DNA of 64,000 nt, from positions 1-64,000 of the forward strand of contig NZ_FCNT01000050.1 of NCBI RefSeq assembly GCF_900021155.1, read 5' to 3'. Of this stretch, positions 7,839 through 56,229 are shown piece after piece. Made by a program: the position numbers and the translations under genes. The notes beneath the pieces are model-generated. The model searched no databases and was not told where the DNA came from. It saw only the letters and a list, made by a program, of their open reading frames with translations. This DNA is from Alistipes sp. CHKCI003 (GTDB taxonomy: Bacteria; Bacteroidota; Bacteroidia; Bacteroidales; Rikenellaceae). Position 1 is the first letter of the stretch. Every line of letters begins with the position of its first letter.

Positions 7839-9251
7839 ATGGCACGAAAGAAAGCGAATTATCCCCTGATCGAGGGGCTCGAAATAACGACCCTCGCAGC
7901 CGAGGGCAAGGCGATGGGTCGCTGGAACGACGTGGTGGTCTTCGTCCCGATGACCGTCCCGGGCGACGTGGTGGACGTGCAGATCCGCTCGAAGCGCCGC
8001 CGCTTCATGGAGGGCTTCGCGGTGCGCTACGTGCGCCGTTCGCCCCTGCGCGCGGAGCCGTTTTGCGAGCATTTCGGCGTGTGCGGCGGCTGCAAATGGC
8101 AGAATCTGCCCTACGACGAACAGCTGCGTTTCAAGACCGAACAGGTCCGCGACCAGCTTGCGCGCATCGGCAAGGTCGCTCTGCCCGAAATCCGGCCCTG
8201 TCTGGGCTCGGCGCAGACGACCTTCTACCGCAACAAACTCGAATACACCTTCGCCGACCGCCGCTGGCTCACGCACGAGGAGGTGGCCGGGGGAGGCGAC
8301 ATCGCACCGGAGCCGGCGCTCGGATTCCACATTCCGGGCATGTTCGACAAAGTGCTCGACATCCGCCGCTGCTGGCTCCAGCCCGATCCGTCGAATGCCA
8401 TACGGCTCGAAACCAGACGCTTCTGCATCGAACGCGGCTACACGTTCCACAACGCCCGCGAGCATCGGGGCCTCATGCGCAATCTGATGATCCGCACCGC
8501 TTCGACGGGCGAGGTGATGGTCGTCGCGGTCTTCGGGGCCGACGACCGTCCGCGCATCGAAGCGCTGCTGGACCATCTGTCCGATGCTTTTCCGCAGATC
8601 ACCTCGCTCATGTACATGGTCAACACCAAGTGGAACGACTCGACGGGCGACCTCGCGGCGGTCTGCTACCGCGGCAAGGACCACATCGTCGAGCGCATGG
8701 AGGGGCTGGAGTTCAAGGTGGGGCCCAAATCCTTCTACCAGACCAACTCCGCGCAGGCCTACGAACTCTACAAGGTGGCGCGCGATTTCGCCGGTCTCAC
8801 GGGGGACGAGGTGCTCTACGATCTCTACACCGGCACGGGTACCATCGCCAACTTCTGCGCCGCGCGGTGCCGTCGGGTGATCGGCATCGAATACGTGCCC
8901 GAAGCGATCGCCGACGCCGAGGTCAATTCGGCCGTCAACGGGATCGGCAACACGCGGTTTTATGCGGGCGACATGAAGGAGGTGCTCTCCGACGCATTCG
9001 TCGAGGCGAACGGACGTCCCGACGTGGTGATCCTCGATCCGCCGCGAGCGGGAGTGGACGAGGCCGTCGTCGGGGTGATCTTGCGCGCCGCGCCCGAGCG
9101 CATCGTCTACGTGAGCTGCAATCCCGCGACGCAGGCCCGCGATCTGGCGCTGCTGGCGGCGGACTACGACGTGGCGTGCGTGCAGCCGGTCGACATGTTT
9201 CCCCACACGCACCATGTCGAGAATGTGGTGAAGCTCGTGCGGCGGGGATAG
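7839..9251 (+). CDS. rlmD: 23S rRNA (uracil-C5)-methyltransferase, RlmD/TrmA family
   Basis: This 470-aa enzyme methylates C5 of uracil in RNA, most likely U1939 of 23S rRNA. A TRAM RNA-binding domain covers about residues 8-66. The iron-sulfur cluster cysteines are C76, C82 and C85, with C178 as the probable fourth ligand. The SAM site is YDLYTGTGTIA (327-337), the catalytic proton-handling region ILDPPRAG (398-405), and the nucleophile C427 lies in YVSCNPATQARD. RlmD, RlmCD and TrmA are hard to separate by motif; the TRAM domain and cluster argue for the RlmD type. A promoter lies just upstream. Confidence 0.92.
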   Translation: MARKKANYPLIEGLEITTLAAEGKAMGRWNDVVVFVPMTVPGDVVDVQIRSKRRRFMEGFAVRYVRRSPLRAEPFCEHFGVCGGCKWQNLPYDEQLRFKTEQVRDQLARIGKVALPEIRPCLGSAQTTFYRNKLEYTFADRRWLTHEEVAGGGDIAPEPALGFHIPGMFDKVLDIRRCWLQPDPSNAIRLETRRFCIERGYTFHNAREHRGLMRNLMIRTASTGEVMVVAVFGADDRPRIEALLDHLSDAFPQITSLMYMVNTKWNDSTGDLAAVCYRGKDHIVERMEGLEFKVGPKSFYQTNSAQAYELYKVARDFAGLTGDEVLYDLYTGTGTIANFCAARCRRVIGIEYVPEAIADAEVNSAVNGIGNTRFYAGDMKEVLSDAFVEANGRPDVVILDPPRAGVDEAVVGVILRAAPERIVYVSCNPATQARDLALLAADYDVACVQPVDMFPHTHHVENVVKLVRRG

Positions 9252-9331: not shown

Positions 9332-11236
9332 TCAGAGAGAGAATGACATGGAGGCCGAAATATAGCCGTCGGGGTCGCTGTCGTCGTACCATATTTTGAC
9401 GAGTGCGGAGTAGGTCCCCTTCCCCTCGGCGCCGATCGCATTCTTGATGTGGATGAAATAGATGTCTCCGCTGTCTTCGAAATAGGCGGCATCCGTGTTG
9501 CTGTAGATGGTTTTCAAAGGATTGTCGAAATCCTCCGATTCGCCTTTGACCCAGCAGACCTCCAAATATTTGATTTCGTCGAGACCATTTTTTATCTCGC
9601 TCCAGTTTTCGATGGTGAGGTCTCCGAAATCGGCGACTTCGTTGAGCAATGCGACCGACGGGAGCTGCGAAGTGATCGAGAAAGTATGGTAACCCTCCGT
9701 ATAGCCGTTCGCGGCATCCGACGGATCGTGCCATGTACGCACGGCTAACGTGTAGTCTCCGATTTCGGTGGGCGGATTCTCCACCAGCGTATAACTCATG
9801 ACGCCGTCCTCCGCCGTGGTGAATGCGACGCTCTTGAAATCTTCGGCGGTCGCATCGGCCTTTTTCAGGAAGGCGTATTCCATTTTCTTCCAGTAGGACT
9901 GGTAATTTGACAGTTGAATCATCTTCTTGTCCGTCAGGTAGGTGAAGACGGGAACCTGCGGTTTGACGTCGTACTCGAAATCGACGGGAAGCGTGTAGAC
10001 GGCGTCTACGCCCGATTTGTCCTTGAATTCGGCTTTGACGGTCAATTGGAGCGTTTGCCTGCCCGGGGCCTGTACGTCGAATTCCAGCATGTCGAGGTTT
10101 ATGCCTGCTTCCGGATCGAGCGAAATGCTCTGAACGACGGTCCCGTTGTACAGAATTTCGGCCGTGTATTTTTCAACGGCATCGTTCTCGGTACACGTCG
10201 CGTGAAGATGGTTTTCCTTTTGCGTTACGTTTACCTCCGGCAGGAACGGAATGCGATAGACGAAGGCGGGAAGCTGGGCGATCTCGCCTGCGTTCAGCCG
10301 ATGACCGGCCAGCGATTTCTCGGTTCGCAGACCGTTGCTCTGGGTGAATTCGAAGGTAAGGGTCTGCCCGCTGTAATCCGATGGAAGAACGGAGAAATAG
10401 ACGTTGCTCGGGGCGGACGAAAGAGCGATCGGGCCCTGCATGGTTACGGTCTGCGATGCGCCGTCTAATTTGAGGCTGCCCGGGCCTTCGATCGTGCCTA
10501 AGGACCCGTCTCCGCCCTGAAGCACCGTTTTGAATGCCTCGTCCATCGGTTCCTGTTTTAAGAATTCCACGACCACGTTTCCGGCGAAGGCTCCGCCGGT
10601 CAGCTCGATCTTTTCGATTTCGGTCTGTTCCGCGGCGGACATCGTCAGGTGGATGAGGCCCGCGAGGTACTTGAACGTCATCGGCGAATAGATGTAAACG
10701 CCGTTCTTGTAACTCTCCGTGCTCGTGGCGATCATCGGCACCGACAGGTTGTCGAACGATCCTTCGACGTACCGCTGCGCGGCGGGAATGGCTGCGCCCA
10801 GCCGCACGAGATCCTTGTAAGGTGAGTAGTAGAATGCTGCCGCATAGGGATAGACGGCTACGCATTGGTTTATGCCGGGGGCTCGCAGAGGATAGTAATC
10901 TTCGTTGTCCCATCCGTCCTGATAGTTTGCATCGAGCGTGAAACCCGCTGTCGCGGTTCCGGCGTCTGCGTCCGAAATATCGAAAGGCAGAAAGTGTTCC
11001 GAAGAGCTTATGTCAGCATACAGGGCGATGCGGTCTTCGGCGCTCCATACGGCGGATTTGTCGCCCATCGCCGTGCGCGTCCCCCCCCCGTCGCCGGCCA
11101 TCTTTGCGACCAGCGTGTTGTCGCGCCTGCCTTTCGTTTCGTTTGACCAGCCGTTTTCCGTAACGTCGTCCTTGGAGCAACCCGTGAAGGCCGACATCGC
11201 AGATGCCAGACCCAGCAGTACAATCGCTTTTTTCAT
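9332..11236 (-). CDS. fimbrillin-like lipoprotein A (Mfa/FimA-type)
   Basis: The 634-aa protein has a lipoprotein signal with lipobox cysteine C20 in SAFTGCSKDD, so it is probably surface-exposed. After a short linker comes TRTAMGDKSAVWSAEDRIAL, the N-terminal signature of the Bacteroidales fimbrillin-like family. The C-terminal half looks like two or more beta-sandwich repeats with Trp and Tyr strands (for example around PTEIGDYTLAVRTWHDPSD). Codons 50-52 are GGG GGG GGG, a G9 run that could slip. The start codon and signal peptide lie in a 92-bp repeat shared with the gene at 12607. In this orientation a terminator lies 61 bases upstream and I find no good -7 element after it. A role as a fimbrial or adhesin subunit is inferred. 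Confidence 0.85.
   Translation of the reverse strand: MKKAIVLLGLASAMSAFTGCSKDDVTENGWSNETKGRRDNTLVAKMAGDGGGTRTAMGDKSAVWSAEDRIALYADISSSEHFLPFDISDADAGTATAGFTLDANYQDGWDNEDYYPLRAPGINQCVAVYPYAAAFYYSPYKDLVRLGAAIPAAQRYVEGSFDNLSVPMIATSTESYKNGVYIYSPMTFKYLAGLIHLTMSAAEQTEIEKIELTGGAFAGNVVVEFLKQEPMDEAFKTVLQGGDGSLGTIEGPGSLKLDGASQTVTMQGPIALSSAPSNVYFSVLPSDYSGQTLTFEFTQSNGLRTEKSLAGHRLNAGEIAQLPAFVYRIPFLPEVNVTQKENHLHATCTENDAVEKYTAEILYNGTVVQSISLDPEAGINLDMLEFDVQAPGRQTLQLTVKAEFKDKSGVDAVYTLPVDFEYDVKPQVPVFTYLTDKKMIQLSNYQSYWKKMEYAFLKKADATAEDFKSVAFTTAEDGVMSYTLVENPPTEIGDYTLAVRTWHDPSDAANGYTEGYHTFSITSQLPSVALLNEVADFGDLTIENWSEIKNGLDEIKYLEVCWVKGESEDFDNPLKTIYSNTDAAYFEDSGDIYFIHIKNAIGAEGKGTYSALVKIWYDDSDPDGYISASMSFSL
11081..11089. 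repeat. C9/G9 homopolymer inside the coding region of fimbrillin-like A
   Basis: Nine C on the plus strand read as nine G in the minus-strand gene, codons 50-52. The frame is intact at nine. Gain or loss of one base would shift the frame within the first 10 percent of the protein. Confidence 0.9.
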
Positions 11237-11257
11237 AATCTTTGCATTATGTTAAAT
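11166..11257 (-). repeat. 92-bp inverted repeat, left copy (5' end of fimbrillin-like A)
   Basis: On the minus strand this runs from ATTTAACATAATGC through the start codon at 11236 and signal peptide codons to AAGGACGA. It matches 12586-12677 at 91 of 92 positions. The one difference makes Ala11 here and Thr11 in the other gene. Similarity stops abruptly at both edges: the upstream sequences and the protein bodies are unrelated. Confidence 0.93.
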
Positions 11258-11299
11258 GCGAAGATGCGGCAACCCGCTGCCGGTCATAGCGTTATGTAA

Positions 11300-11324
11300 A
11301 AACCGCCCGCATTGCGGGCGGTTT
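11300..11324 (-). terminator. intrinsic terminator after the SIMPL gene
   Basis: AAACCGCCCGC pairs with GCGGGCGGTTT (11 bp, 3-base loop). On the minus strand the stem runs into TTTTTA. It should end the SIMPL transcript before it reaches the fimbrillin-like gene at 11236. Confidence 0.82.
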
Positions 11325-11351
11325 CGACTTTTCGCCGGAGGCGGGAAGAGG

Positions 11352-12050
11352 TCAAGGCTCCAGCACGAATTTGGCCTGCACGTTATAGGTCAGTTTGATG
11401 GTTTTGAAATCCAGCGGTTCGTCCTCCGATGCCGATTCGGCGTATGCGTCCAACGCCGATTTTCCGCGTGCGACCGCCGCCATGTTGCTGTAAAAAACGG
11501 GCATCACGTCGCTGTTCGAATCGTAGATGTAGAAACAGGGCCCGATTTTCTGACCGATGGCTTCGGCCAGCGTAGCGGCATTCTGCTTCGCATTCTGCAT
11601 GGCAGCCACTCGTATCTGCTCCTTGTACTGGTCTATCTTCGTGTGCGATACGCGCAGAATCGCCACATTGGAGATGCCGACGGCGTCGAGTGCGGCATAG
11701 ACTTTCGAAACCATGGCCGCCGAACCGAGCTTGAGCTGGTATTTGGCGGTGGCGACCGAGGTTTTCTTCTTGAAGAATTCGCTCGACATGTTGGCCATTT
11801 TGAGCTGTTTATCGACATCGATACCGAGACGTCCGAGCGCTGCGATCATCTCCTTCTGCTGCTGTTCCACCGTGATTTTACCCTTCGATTCGCGTTCGTT
11901 GATGACGATCGACAGGTAGAACTCGTCCGGCGCGATCTCCCGTTCGGCCCGTCCGTTGACCTGAATATAACTGGGGAATTTCTCCTCGTACTGCGCCATG
12001 GCGGGCAGTGCCGTCAGCACGACGGCTGCTGCGATAATCCAATTTTTCAT
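11352..12050 (-). CDS. SIMPL domain-containing (DUF541) periplasmic protein
   Basis: The 232-aa protein has a cleavable signal peptide (MKNWIIAAAVVLTALPAMAQ), so it should be in the periplasm or at the outer membrane. The rest matches the SIMPL/DUF541 family: VNGRAEREIAPDEFYLSI near the start, a central region YQLKLGSAAMVSKVYAALD, and a C-terminal VQAKFVLEP strand. Family members are linked to oxidative or envelope stress and oligomer formation, but no reaction is established. It lies inside the segment flanked by the 92-bp inverted repeats, with its own promoter at 12080-12087 and terminator at 11300-11324. Confidence 0.88.
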   Translation of the reverse strand: MKNWIIAAAVVLTALPAMAQYEEKFPSYIQVNGRAEREIAPDEFYLSIVINERESKGKITVEQQQKEMIAALGRLGIDVDKQLKMANMSSEFFKKKTSVATAKYQLKLGSAAMVSKVYAALDAVGISNVAILRVSHTKIDQYKEQIRVAAMQNAKQNAATLAEAIGQKIGPCFYIYDSNSDVMPVFYSNMAAVARGKSALDAYAESASEDEPLDFKTIKLTYNVQAKFVLEP

Positions 12051-12079
12051 AGTATTCTGTTTTTAGAAGTTTGCATCTG

Positions 12080-12087
12080 CAAATATA
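12080..12087 (-). promoter_or_regulatory. -7 promoter element of the SIMPL gene
   Basis: TATATTTG on the minus strand matches the -7 consensus and lies 29 bases before the SIMPL start codon. Confidence 0.62.
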
Positions 12088-12183
12088 ACGCCCGACTCTG
12101 CGCGAAAGTATGTTTCGCGGACAAATTCATTTTCGTACCTTCTCTATGAATCGGGTAGCGACCTGCAAAAAAAATGACATTTA

Positions 12184-12215
12184 TTTGCTTTTTTCATCGG
12201 AATATCGTATATTCG
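12184..12215 (+). promoter_or_regulatory. promoter driving the 57-aa gene and fimbrillin-like B
   Basis: A TTTG -33 box (12184-12187) is separated by 20 bases from TATATTCG (12208-12215), one base from the TAnnTTTG consensus. Spacing matches the Bacteroidetes norm. It is the only good promoter facing the fimbrillin-like B gene, and it lies inside the segment bounded by the inverted repeats. Confidence 0.65.
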
Positions 12216-12383
12216 CAGAGAGATGAGTTCCCAAGCCCGTTCGAGAGGCTTATCGGAGGGGTGTCGGTGCGGGTGTCGTCTGAATGAGGGAAGTGTTTTC
12301 GGCATCGGGGGGGCGAATGTTTTGCGTGCGTGTGCAGTGAGAGGGTTTCTTGGATTCCGTTCGGTTCTTCGGGCTACATTTAT

Positions 12384-12403
12384 TAACCTAATATAACCTA
12401 ATA
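12384..12403 (+). repeat. tandem 10-base repeat before the 57-aa gene
   Basis: TAACCTAATA occurs twice without a gap, ending 9 bases before the start codon at 12413. It could affect ribosome access or bind a regulator. Confidence 0.8.
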
Positions 12404-12412
12404 TTCTACATT

Positions 12413-12586
12413 ATGAAACAGAATTTACAACTGGGGATGAAAAGCAGTCCCGCACCCTATGTCGCGCCGCAGATCGCGGTGTCGAGCGTAACGGTCGAAC
12501 GTGGCTTTGCAGAATCCTCTTTCGATTTCACCGGAAGCGGAATTCAGGATTTCGAGAATTCGAACAGCGAATGGGGCTGGGAGTAA
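12413..12586 (+). CDS. 57-aa peptide preceding a fimbrillin-like lipoprotein
   Basis: The peptide starts MKQNLQLGMKSSPAPYVAPQ, continues IAVSSVTVERGFAESSFDF and ends in an acidic tail NSNSEWGWE. The pattern of a basic head, a PQIxV...VExGFA core and an acidic or Trp-rich tail resembles short proteins often found beside fimbrial lipoprotein genes in Bacteroidales (from memory, not searched). It has no signal peptide or membrane helix. Its TAA stop ends on the first base of the 92-bp repeat, and the fimbrillin-like B start codon follows 20 bases later, so the two genes should be co-transcribed. Function unknown. Confidence 0.72.
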   Translation: MKQNLQLGMKSSPAPYVAPQIAVSSVTVERGFAESSFDFTGSGIQDFENSNSEWGWE

Positions 12587-12677
12587 TTTAACATAATGCA
12601 AAGATTATGAAAAAAGCGATTGTACTGCTGGGTCTGACATCTGCGATGTCGGCCTTCACGGGTTGCTCCAAGGACGA
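12586..12677 (+). repeat. 92-bp inverted repeat, right copy (5' end of fimbrillin-like B)
   Basis: This is the plus-strand partner of 11166-11257, 91/92 identical in inverted orientation. It covers the last base of the peptide gene, the 20-base spacer, the start codon at 12607 and the signal peptide through Cys20 and SKD. Recombination between the copies would invert 11258-12585 and leave both lipoprotein frames intact. Confidence 0.93.
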
Positions 12678-14202
12678 ACCTACTTCGCCGGAAACAGTTG
12701 GTGTTCAAGAATATACGATCAATTCGATCATCGCAGGCGGGGATACCCGTACCGCGCTCGATACCGAGACGCTGCAACTCAGCTGGCTGAAAGGCGACAA
12801 GATCAAAGTGTATACGGGCGATAATGGGATTTTTACCGAATATACGACCGAGAACGGCGACGGTATGTTCAAGGGGTCCGTGAAACCGGTCCTTTCGTCG
12901 TCGCTGAGCTATGTGGCCGTTTATCCCGACGGCAAGTTCGGGACCGTTGTCGATGGTACCAAACCCATCGAAGCGCTGCGAATTACTGTCCCCAAAGATC
13001 AGAAATACGAAGCCGGCAAAGGTCCGGTAGGCGCTATTCCGATGGTCGGTATCTGGGGAGACGGCGATGAGTCCGTGCTTTTCAAACCGGTGGGTTCGGC
13101 GCTCCGGCTGCCTGTCTATTCCGCAGTCGAAGGTACGACCCTGACGAGCGTGGCATTCCAGTTCCAGAGCAGCTCGGCCGGCAATGTCGGTGCAGGTGAA
13201 ATCGGGCTGAAATCATGGGCGCTCGACGAATACGGAGATTACAGCTCGCCGGAGGTGTATTACAAACGTACCGACTTCGCATACGGAGAGGTTACCCCGC
13301 AGGTAACCGTAACGGGCGACATCGCTCTGGGTACGACGGCCGAAACCGCTACGGATGTGTATGTGGCCGTAACGCCCGGCAATTATCAGGGCGGTTACAC
13401 GGTTACGATCACCGACGCCGAAGGGGCGTCGATGTCGAAGACCAAACCCGCTTCGTCGTCGATCGTCGCGCTCATGGCCGGTCGAATTCAGAAGATCGCT
13501 CCGTTGGAGTATGTTCAGAAAGCTCCGAAGTTTACGGTTGCGGAGAATCCCTCCGACAATACCGTCGTTACGGCTACGCTCGATGCGGAACAGGAGTTGC
13601 TTCCAAATGCTACCTATCAGTATTGGGTCGAGGCATTGTCGGGCGGTATGCAGGGCAGCAGGTGGAGTCAGGCGTCCGACAAGATCAAGCTGTCTTCCGG
13701 CACTACCTCTATCGTGGTCAGTGATATCGAATTGAGCAAATTGTTCAGTCAGCCGAAAGAGGGCGATAAGTTGCGTTTCGTGGTCGAGGCGTCCGAATCC
13801 GGCACCGTTTATACCCGTAGCTACGAATATACGTACCACAAGGCCGTTTCGGGCGAGGTTAAGATCGATCGCATTGACTATATCGAGGGCAACGTCGAAA
13901 TATTCTTCTCAGCGGGAGAAGAGTTGCTGAAAAATGCGGAGTCTTCCAATGTGCTCTTCAATCTAAGCAGCGAGGAGTGGACGGCCAGTCCGAGCGACGT
14001 GTGGCTGTCCGATGCGGGCGACGTGGTGAAGTGGAATAACGATACTGACGGTTTCGGTGTACGATTAGTGATTCCGTTGTCGGCGTTCGGAGCCGATATT
14101 CCCGTAGGAACTTACACGTTGACCGTGTCGGTCTTCGAATCAGCATCGGACTTTGACCCTTATACCTCGTCGAGTGCGGAATTCGACGTATATAATGGTT
14201 AG
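12607..14202 (+). CDS. fimbrillin-like lipoprotein B
   Basis: The 531-aa lipoprotein has the same signal peptide as the gene at 9332 apart from Thr11, with lipobox cysteine C20. The family signature follows as GGDTRTALDTETLQLSWLKG, then DKIKVYTGD. An N-terminal fimbrillin-like domain (about 40-300) ends near a hinge at KIAPLEYVQKAPKF. Two C-terminal beta-sandwich regions follow (about 305-420 and 420-530). It is downstream of the 57-aa gene and the promoter at 12184, so this copy looks expressed. A surface adhesin or fimbrial subunit role is inferred from the family. Confidence 0.86.
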   Translation: MKKAIVLLGLTSAMSAFTGCSKDEPTSPETVGVQEYTINSIIAGGDTRTALDTETLQLSWLKGDKIKVYTGDNGIFTEYTTENGDGMFKGSVKPVLSSSLSYVAVYPDGKFGTVVDGTKPIEALRITVPKDQKYEAGKGPVGAIPMVGIWGDGDESVLFKPVGSALRLPVYSAVEGTTLTSVAFQFQSSSAGNVGAGEIGLKSWALDEYGDYSSPEVYYKRTDFAYGEVTPQVTVTGDIALGTTAETATDVYVAVTPGNYQGGYTVTITDAEGASMSKTKPASSSIVALMAGRIQKIAPLEYVQKAPKFTVAENPSDNTVVTATLDAEQELLPNATYQYWVEALSGGMQGSRWSQASDKIKLSSGTTSIVVSDIELSKLFSQPKEGDKLRFVVEASESGTVYTRSYEYTYHKAVSGEVKIDRIDYIEGNVEIFFSAGEELLKNAESSNVLFNLSSEEWTASPSDVWLSDAGDVVKWNNDTDGFGVRLVIPLSAFGADIPVGTYTLTVSVFESASDFDPYTSSSAEFDVYNG

Positions 14203-14380: not shown

Positions 14381-14836
14381 ATGGAACAGAAATTCGTGTT
14401 CGATTACGAACATTACGAAAGCCTCGCTGCGTTGTCTGCGGAGGACCGCGAACTGGTCGCCGAGGCCGGGCGTGCGACGGCCAATGCACATGCGCCCTAT
14501 TCGAAATTCCGCGTCGGCGCCGCAGCCCGTCTGCGCAGCGGCAGGATATTGTATGGCAGCAACTTCGAAAGCGAAGTCTATCCTGCCGGACTGTGCGCCG
14601 AGCGGACCCTGCTCTTCTATGCCGAGGCCAACTGCGCCGACGATCCCGTCGAGACGCTGGCCATCGCCTCCGATCCCTCCGGACGCGAATGCTACCCCTG
14701 CGGCCAGTGCCGTCAGGTGATGGTCGATGTCGAACGCCGCCAAGGCTCGCCCATGCGGGTGATCATGAGCGGGCACGGTTCCGCCACGGTCGTCGCTTCG
14801 GCCGCTCTGCTGCTTCCCTTTACGTTCAGCCTGTAA
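14381..14836 (+). CDS. cdd: cytidine deaminase
   Basis: Cdd deaminates cytidine and deoxycytidine to the uridine forms in pyrimidine salvage. The 151-aa size fits the homotetrameric small form. The zinc ligands are C72 in AGLCAER and C107/C110 in PCGQCRQ, and the catalytic glutamate is E74. The substrate segment AHAPYSKFRVGAA is at about 37-49. The start is fixed by the promoter 30 bases upstream; an ATG 11 codons earlier would lie inside the promoter. The next gene starts 3 bases after the stop. Confidence 0.95.
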   Translation: MEQKFVFDYEHYESLAALSAEDRELVAEAGRATANAHAPYSKFRVGAAARLRSGRILYGSNFESEVYPAGLCAERTLLFYAEANCADDPVETLAIASDPSGRECYPCGQCRQVMVDVERRQGSPMRVIMSGHGSATVVASAALLLPFTFSL

Positions 14837-55740: not shown

Positions 55741-55803
55741 CGACATCCGAATCGCTTCCGTCTCCAGCTCCCCCCCCCGGCTTAACGAAGTGGGACGACG
55801 ATG
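55741..55803 (+). repeat. degenerate direct repeat, left unit
   Basis: CGACATCCGAATCGC, TTCCG and, after a C9 run, GGCTTAACGAAG...GGGACG match the unit starting at 56230 in order with scattered differences and a shorter middle. Both copies sit on the outer side of the 62-bp inverted repeat arms, in the same orientation. Confidence 0.65.
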
Positions 55804-55865
55804 TCCGACGTTTTCGGTAAGCCGAGGACGGAGCCGAACTCGTCCGGCAGACTGCCGACGCAGGG
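55804..55865 (+). repeat. 62-bp perfect inverted repeat, left arm
   Basis: The arm starts TCCGACGTTTTCGG and ends GCCGACGCAGGG. It is exactly repeated in inverted orientation at 56142-56203. It contains the small palindrome CGGCAGACTGCCG, which suggests a REP-like element. Confidence 0.95.
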
Positions 55866-55922
55866 AAACGGAAGAAAGAAATTCATTCTTTCCCTTCGGC
55901 CTGCCGCATTGGGCCGCCTCTC

Positions 55923-56111: not shown

Positions 56112-56141
56112 ATTTTTCATTCTTTTTTTGGGGGACGTTTC

Positions 56142-56203
56142 CCCTGCGTCGGCAGTCTGCCGGACGAGTTCGGCTCCGTCCTCGGCTTACCGAAAACGTC
56201 GGA
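56142..56203 (-). repeat. 62-bp perfect inverted repeat, right arm
   Basis: Exact inverse of 55804-55865. The arms are 276 bases apart and enclose xseB alone. Confidence 0.95.
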
Positions 56204-56229
56204 TATTCGTCGGTCTCCGCTCTCCCCGT

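Follow-up and report, generated by a model that had tools for sequence, protein, structure and literature searches.

How do two unrelated surface-protein genes come to begin with the same DNA, and could that common beginning let a single promoter serve either of them in turn? The question is raised by a locus in the draft genome of Alistipes sp. CHKCI003 (2.87 Mb in 105 contigs), on a 92.6-kb contig whose first 64 kb form the window analysed here. Two genes, which we call A and B, face outward from a 1.33-kb segment and are predicted to encode surface lipoproteins. Both proteins start with MKKAIVLLGL[A/T]SAMSAFTGC, in which a lipobox cysteine can be read from the sequence, and both starts lie in the arms of a long inverted repeat. 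Between the arms are a promoter, a gene for a microprotein of 57 amino acids (aa) and a gene with a SIMPL domain (Table 1). On balance we lean, if only slightly, towards reading the locus as a two-state expression switch for the two lipoproteins.

The arms of the repeat are each 92 nucleotides (nt) long, agree at 91 of 92 positions and enclose a spacer of 1328 nt. They form the longest inverted repeat of the window, with a longest exact stretch of 51 nt as against at most 19 nt when the surrounding 6 kb was base-shuffled 50 times. A search of the 2.87-Mb genome (E<=0.001) returned just these two copies, short of the more than two alleles and several sites that mark a shufflon. On the B side, the arm begins with the last base of the microprotein stop codon and, having covered 21 non-coding bases, takes in start codon and signal peptide and stops a little beyond the lipobox cysteine; in both genes the arms include the ribosome-binding region, the start codon and the lipoprotein signal peptide. 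An initial annotation of this DNA had described a 92-bp repeat confined to the starts of genes whose bodies are unrelated; both parts of that description hold, and the pair proves to be unique in the genome. Without their leaders A and B are not significantly similar (BLAST, best E 0.011), and the repeat listing around the locus contains no 3' stretch common to them.

We considered whether conservation of signal peptides might have given rise to such a repeat. Of the 23 leader codons, 22 specify the same residue in A and B, and at each of these 22 the codon itself does not differ (P about 10^-8.4 if codons were chosen independently); the 21 non-coding bases are identical too. Pairs drawn from 20 comparable lipoprotein leaders of three genomes have a median identity of 41%, and the best pair other than A and B reaches 74%. 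Signal-peptide conservation therefore does not account for the repeat, and codon identity together with the low identity of other leaders rules it out as the origin. The same observations bear on the possibility that A and B are expressed independently, their leaders being kept alike by selection or by gene conversion without inversion. Such an explanation suits a repeat that holds just translation and secretion signals, and conversion between inverted copies is possible. The identity of synonymous codons and of non-coding bases speaks against it, as do the lack of any other leader pair above 74% in the three genomes, the terminator upstream of A and the absence of a promoter for A from our scan (below). 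We regard independent expression as improbable.

The relatives of B point instead to an exchange of leaders. The closest matches to the B body in the sister genomes, designated G146 and G177, are G177_C24 (E 1e-27), G146_C1 (3e-25) and G146_C2a (1e-21), all of which lie elsewhere in those genomes and not at this locus. Their leaders have 6-9 of 22 residues in common with that of B; the B leader has 21 of 22 in common with A, and 14 and 13 with the A homologues. Because the relatives of the body have other leaders and B has an A-type one, we conclude that B gained an A-type leader. Taken at the level of sequence comparison, this shows that recombination occurred at the repeat at least once in the past.

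To whom the promoter belonged before this exchange is indicated by the neighbourhood of the SIMPL gene, which we compared across 21 related genomes. At 19 of the 21 loci SIMPL points the same way as the RlmD-type gene, and homologues of A and B were not found. G146 and G177, which a tree built on four flanking genes places as sister group to the present genome (support 0.999), have the RlmD-type gene in forward orientation, SIMPL in reverse, and then promoter, microprotein, lipoprotein and deaminase gene all in forward orientation, with similar promoter boxes at the same place. Their single lipoprotein at the locus is a homologue of A (27 and 31% identity; E 4e-47 and 6e-55 between the bodies) and occupies the place that B has here; a search with the B body matched neither. 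Since the sister species have an A homologue behind the promoter and microprotein gene, this unit served an A-type gene before B, and B has taken over the expression site of A. Among the compared loci SIMPL is reversed only in this genome, G146 and G177, the other 19 having it parallel to its neighbours. We rejected this reversal as proof of inversion: several distant members of the genus also have SIMPL opposite the deaminase gene. Its orientation relative to conserved neighbours varies in the genus (e.g. L049 9233-9922, L093 8560-9249).

The leader exchange alone does not establish inversion, since an earlier step must have put a copy of the A leader on B. For A, inversion is the evident route back to the expression site, and the contents of the segment are those that such a route would call for. 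It had been claimed that one good promoter faces either gene and lies inside the segment, alongside the 57-aa gene, SIMPL and the SIMPL terminator. The contents are as claimed, and the promoter statement is upheld within a consensus scan of positions 11000-12800 (TTTG / TAnnTTTG, spacing 17-23 nt, at least 9 of 10 matches), whose sole match points at the microprotein gene and B. SIMPL and gene A share a strand, with A downstream and the SIMPL terminator between them, and in the assembled orientation A has no microprotein gene upstream. When a crossover at paired arm positions was made in silico, A (634 aa) and B (531 aa) both stayed open, the order became promoter, microprotein gene and A, and the SIMPL terminator came to lie upstream of B, in agreement with what the initial annotation had foreseen.

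We suggest that the single promoter and single microprotein gene on the 1.33-kb segment would serve the two lipoprotein genes alternately. As assembled, transcription would run from the promoter through the microprotein gene into B, and A, beyond the SIMPL terminator, would be silent. A crossover between the leaders would invert the segment, placing promoter and microprotein gene before A and the SIMPL terminator before B, and SIMPL would move along with its own promoter and terminator. Such an inversion might be carried out by RecA-type homologous recombination, or by a tyrosine recombinase of the genome acting in trans. With repeats so arranged, the simple reciprocal exchange is an inversion; since DNA homology between A and B is limited to the 5' end, replacement of the bodies by conversion is disfavoured. 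A is intact over its 634 aa, as expected of a gene still in use. We infer from this anatomy that the event was an inversion, that it would be reversible, that it may occur in present populations and that one of these two enzyme routes would serve it.

Several observations weigh against the switch. The inverted form is present in no sequence searched, a set with one genome per species in which it could hardly have shown up; the contig is unbroken through both arms, and the genome contains no alternative junction. At the locus in G146 and G177 both the second lipoprotein gene and the repeat are absent, no tyrosine recombinase gene lies nearby, and the high identity of the arms could come from one recent event. 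A scan of genome contigs with B gave no match, and the same scan with SIMPL gave two uncultured Alistipes loci, both of which lack the system; copies of the leader were not found in viral contigs (IMG/VR), and there was no phage match. Of the proposal of an invertible switch, the anatomy stands in full and so does past recombination at the leader; the inverted orientation was not observed, and a recent one-off event would leave much the same sequence.

That event is the main rival: in this lineage, the A leader would have been duplicated in inverted orientation and joined to the B body, and A displaced, promoterless, behind SIMPL, leaving a young, unused repeat and a decaying A. An A-type leader on a foreign body, sister species that hold just A here, and an assembly with a single orientation are all in line with this scenario, and one edge of the repeat coincides exactly with the microprotein stop codon, which a switch would not need. 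It explains less readily why A is intact throughout, in-frame G9 homopolymer included, and why the repeat is positioned such that both frames survive an exchange. Moreover, a near-identical inverted pair of 92 bp, 1.3 kb apart, is expected to recombine to some extent in a RecA-proficient cell. We consider the one-off rearrangement a serious possibility but would not favour it.

Misassembly might also have made the inverted pair or the gene order, given a draft of 105 contigs and the capacity of repeats of ~92 bp to mislead short-read assemblers. The arms can be told apart by one base and by the bodies next to them, and synteny with relatives is undisturbed to the left and right of the locus, which makes an artefact very improbable. 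A wrong orientation of the 1.3-kb segment is possible, yet would leave the question of a switch open, not closed.

Returning to the proposed switch, we considered which enzyme might invert the segment. The earlier statement that no recombinase gene lies nearby stands for tyrosine recombinases: PF00589 has no match on the 92.6-kb contig (serine recombinases were not searched) and 18 in the rest of the genome. Recombination of the RecA type calls for no dedicated enzyme and is compatible with an arm of 92 bp. A more specific route is suggested by the end of each arm, where a 30-nt core resembles a tyrosine-recombinase site of the dif/cer type. Scored against the E. coli dif sequence, its half-sites match at 17 of 22 bases (XerD side 11/11, XerC side 6/11) around an 8-bp, cer-like centre. 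This score is the best in about 470 kb scanned and is reached by 1 of 3000 composition-matched shuffles; the strict core pattern is present in 4 of 180 genomes of the genus. XerC/XerD or a relative could thus invert the segment at a site of this kind, as a special case of the switch. Against this, the likeness is a post hoc observation, the match is poor in the XerC half, and the core overlaps the start codon and ribosome-binding region, which are constrained anyway. The reference is the dif of E. coli; two pattern searches did not identify that of Alistipes, and across the genus a pattern with a 6-bp centre is no commoner than chance would give. An Xer-type inversion is unlikely on our assessment, and somewhat more doubtful still is the full scheme, an Xer-driven inversion at the signal-peptide repeat that passes a promoter and an obligatory microprotein between two unrelated surface lipoproteins, with a cer-like site serving at the same time as translation start region.

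The proposed arrangement has counterparts among known systems. In the sap S-layer locus of Campylobacter fetus, the promoter lies on an invertible segment with other genes, and inversion selects among outward-facing surface-protein genes with common 5' ends. The Alistipes locus is like it in its opposed genes, common 5' ends and single promoter on the segment between: inverted repeats lie at the 5' ends, the consensus scan gives one promoter, and the frames survive inversion. In contrast to the locus described here, the sap element is larger, belongs to a bigger family and has been demonstrated to invert; ours, read from sequence, has a common 5' end of 92 bp and SIMPL and a microprotein as passengers, and we claim no homology. 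The sap locus is cited in PMC11852207 and PMC5634654. In Mycoplasma agalactiae vpma and M. pulmonis vsa, inversion links silent surface-lipoprotein genes to a unique promoter (PMC2268961, PMC5634654), with recombination sites at the 5' ends (in vpma, in 5' untranslated regions), as here. Those are multi-gene loci, and vpma has the Xer1 recombinase gene beside it, whereas the present locus has two genes, on a contig devoid of tyrosine recombinase genes. The Ureaplasma elements mba/UU376 and UU172/UU171 likewise alternate oppositely oriented surface genes by inversion, with one repeat in the 5' coding region, but their repeats measure 21-51 nt and inversion was shown at the genomic and protein level (PMC3047005). 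Within the same bacterial order, inversion controls outer-surface loci of Bacteroides, including the BT1927 S-layer promoter (PMC12548429) and other invertons (PMC12632263), and a SusC/SusD cluster of B. fragilis is cited as an invertible surface locus in PMC11852207. The control proposed here is of the same sort, but invertons are described as having short flanking repeats of 10-40 nt (PMC11892184), unlike the 92-bp repeat of this locus, which takes in the start codon and signal peptide of A as well as B. Should it operate as we suggest, the locus would be a promoter-segment inversion of known design with an unusual companion of the promoter, the microprotein gene. A literature search on phase variation or inversion in Alistipes found no paper on such a system; inversion, if confirmed, would give this abundant gut genus a surface-protein switch.

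The microprotein belongs to a family of ~40-60 aa. Using a profile built from the 57-aa protein and five relatives, we searched this genome, G146 and G177 and found 18 microprotein genes, every one of them directly upstream of a lipoprotein gene. The gap is usually 13-42 nt, and one member overlaps an alternative upstream start of its neighbour. Within these three genomes, then, a lipoprotein gene follows every member of the family. Gene A, which has no such gene before it, departs from this pattern but would fit it after inversion, and the switch offers a reason for the departure. Of two members compared with NCBIfam (57 and 46 aa) neither gave a match, and the 57-aa protein gave none in Pfam.

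Table 1. Positions in the window of the genes, repeat arms and signals discussed in the text
Feature	Coordinates	Strand	Basis
Gene A, 634-aa lipoprotein, predicted silent as assembled; no microprotein gene upstream	9332..11236	-	Open reading frame (ORF)
Gene B, 531-aa lipoprotein, predicted expressed as assembled; A-type leader, body of other subfamily	12607..14202	+	ORF, leader/body comparison
Left arm, leader of gene A (21 nt upstream + first 71 nt of ORF)	11166..11257		Repeat search
Right arm, leader of gene B	12586..12677		Repeat search
Predicted invertible segment (1328 nt), with SIMPL, promoter and microprotein gene	11258..12585		Repeat + simulated inversion
Bacteroidota-type promoter TTTG-N20-TATATTCG, only one found facing either lipoprotein gene	12184..12215	+	Consensus scan
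57-aa microprotein gene (pep), core Y-x-x-P ... E-x-G-F-A-x-S	12413..12586	+	ORF, family profile
SIMPL-domain gene (DUF541), 232 aa, self-contained passenger	11352..12050	-	PF04402 E 4.8e-24; conserved here across relatives
Intrinsic terminator of SIMPL, between SIMPL and gene A	11298..11324	-	12-bp GC-rich stem + T run
Dif/cer-like core, left arm, TTTTTTCATAA-TCTTTGCA-TTATGTTAAAT (tentative)	11228..11257	+	17/22 half-site bases of E. coli dif
Dif/cer-like core, right arm (tentative)	12586..12615	-	Pattern search, half-site scoring
G9 homopolymer inside gene A, in frame	11081..11089	-	Sequence
RlmD-type rRNA methyltransferase gene, conserved left flank (named by inspection)	7839..9251	+	Beside SIMPL in 21/21 related loci, 81-89% identical
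Cytidine-deaminase-like gene, conserved right flank (named by inspection)	14384..14836	+	In 172/180 genus genomes

The lipoproteins themselves had been called fimbrillin-like, a description that we do not retain. Neither A nor B has a Pfam match, and A alone has a marginal NCBIfam match, to Mfa1 (E 0.003, 16.7 bits against a cut-off of 130). A paralogous unit on contig C22 matches Mfa_like_1 (PF13149). Profile searches of the PDB gave no credible relative of the A family, and single-sequence structure predictions of A and B reached a mean predicted local distance difference test (pLDDT) score of 38 and 42.

Runs of G9 such as that in gene A number 6 in the window, against 0.63 expected, and are common in the genome too. 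An exact G9 stands near the start of 5 of the 18 microprotein genes: L175 (G000 C22), L178 (G000 C99), L181 (G000 C65), and L176 and L185 (G177). These tracts lie in different codon frames, reading Gly-Gly-Gly in three and Arg-Gly-Gly-Glu in one. The C65 copy has its start codon thrown out of frame by the G9, with a stop after 16 residues. To judge from their sequence, they look like slippage-prone on/off tracts. At L097 5733-9870 (G000 C65) two microprotein-lipoprotein units stand in tandem, the first lipoprotein ending in a BACON domain. Elsewhere in the window, a 68-nt inverted repeat (55801-55868 / 56139-56206) surrounds a small gene beside an exonuclease VII look-alike and is a member of a dispersed family of ~72-bp repeats present at many sites in the genome.

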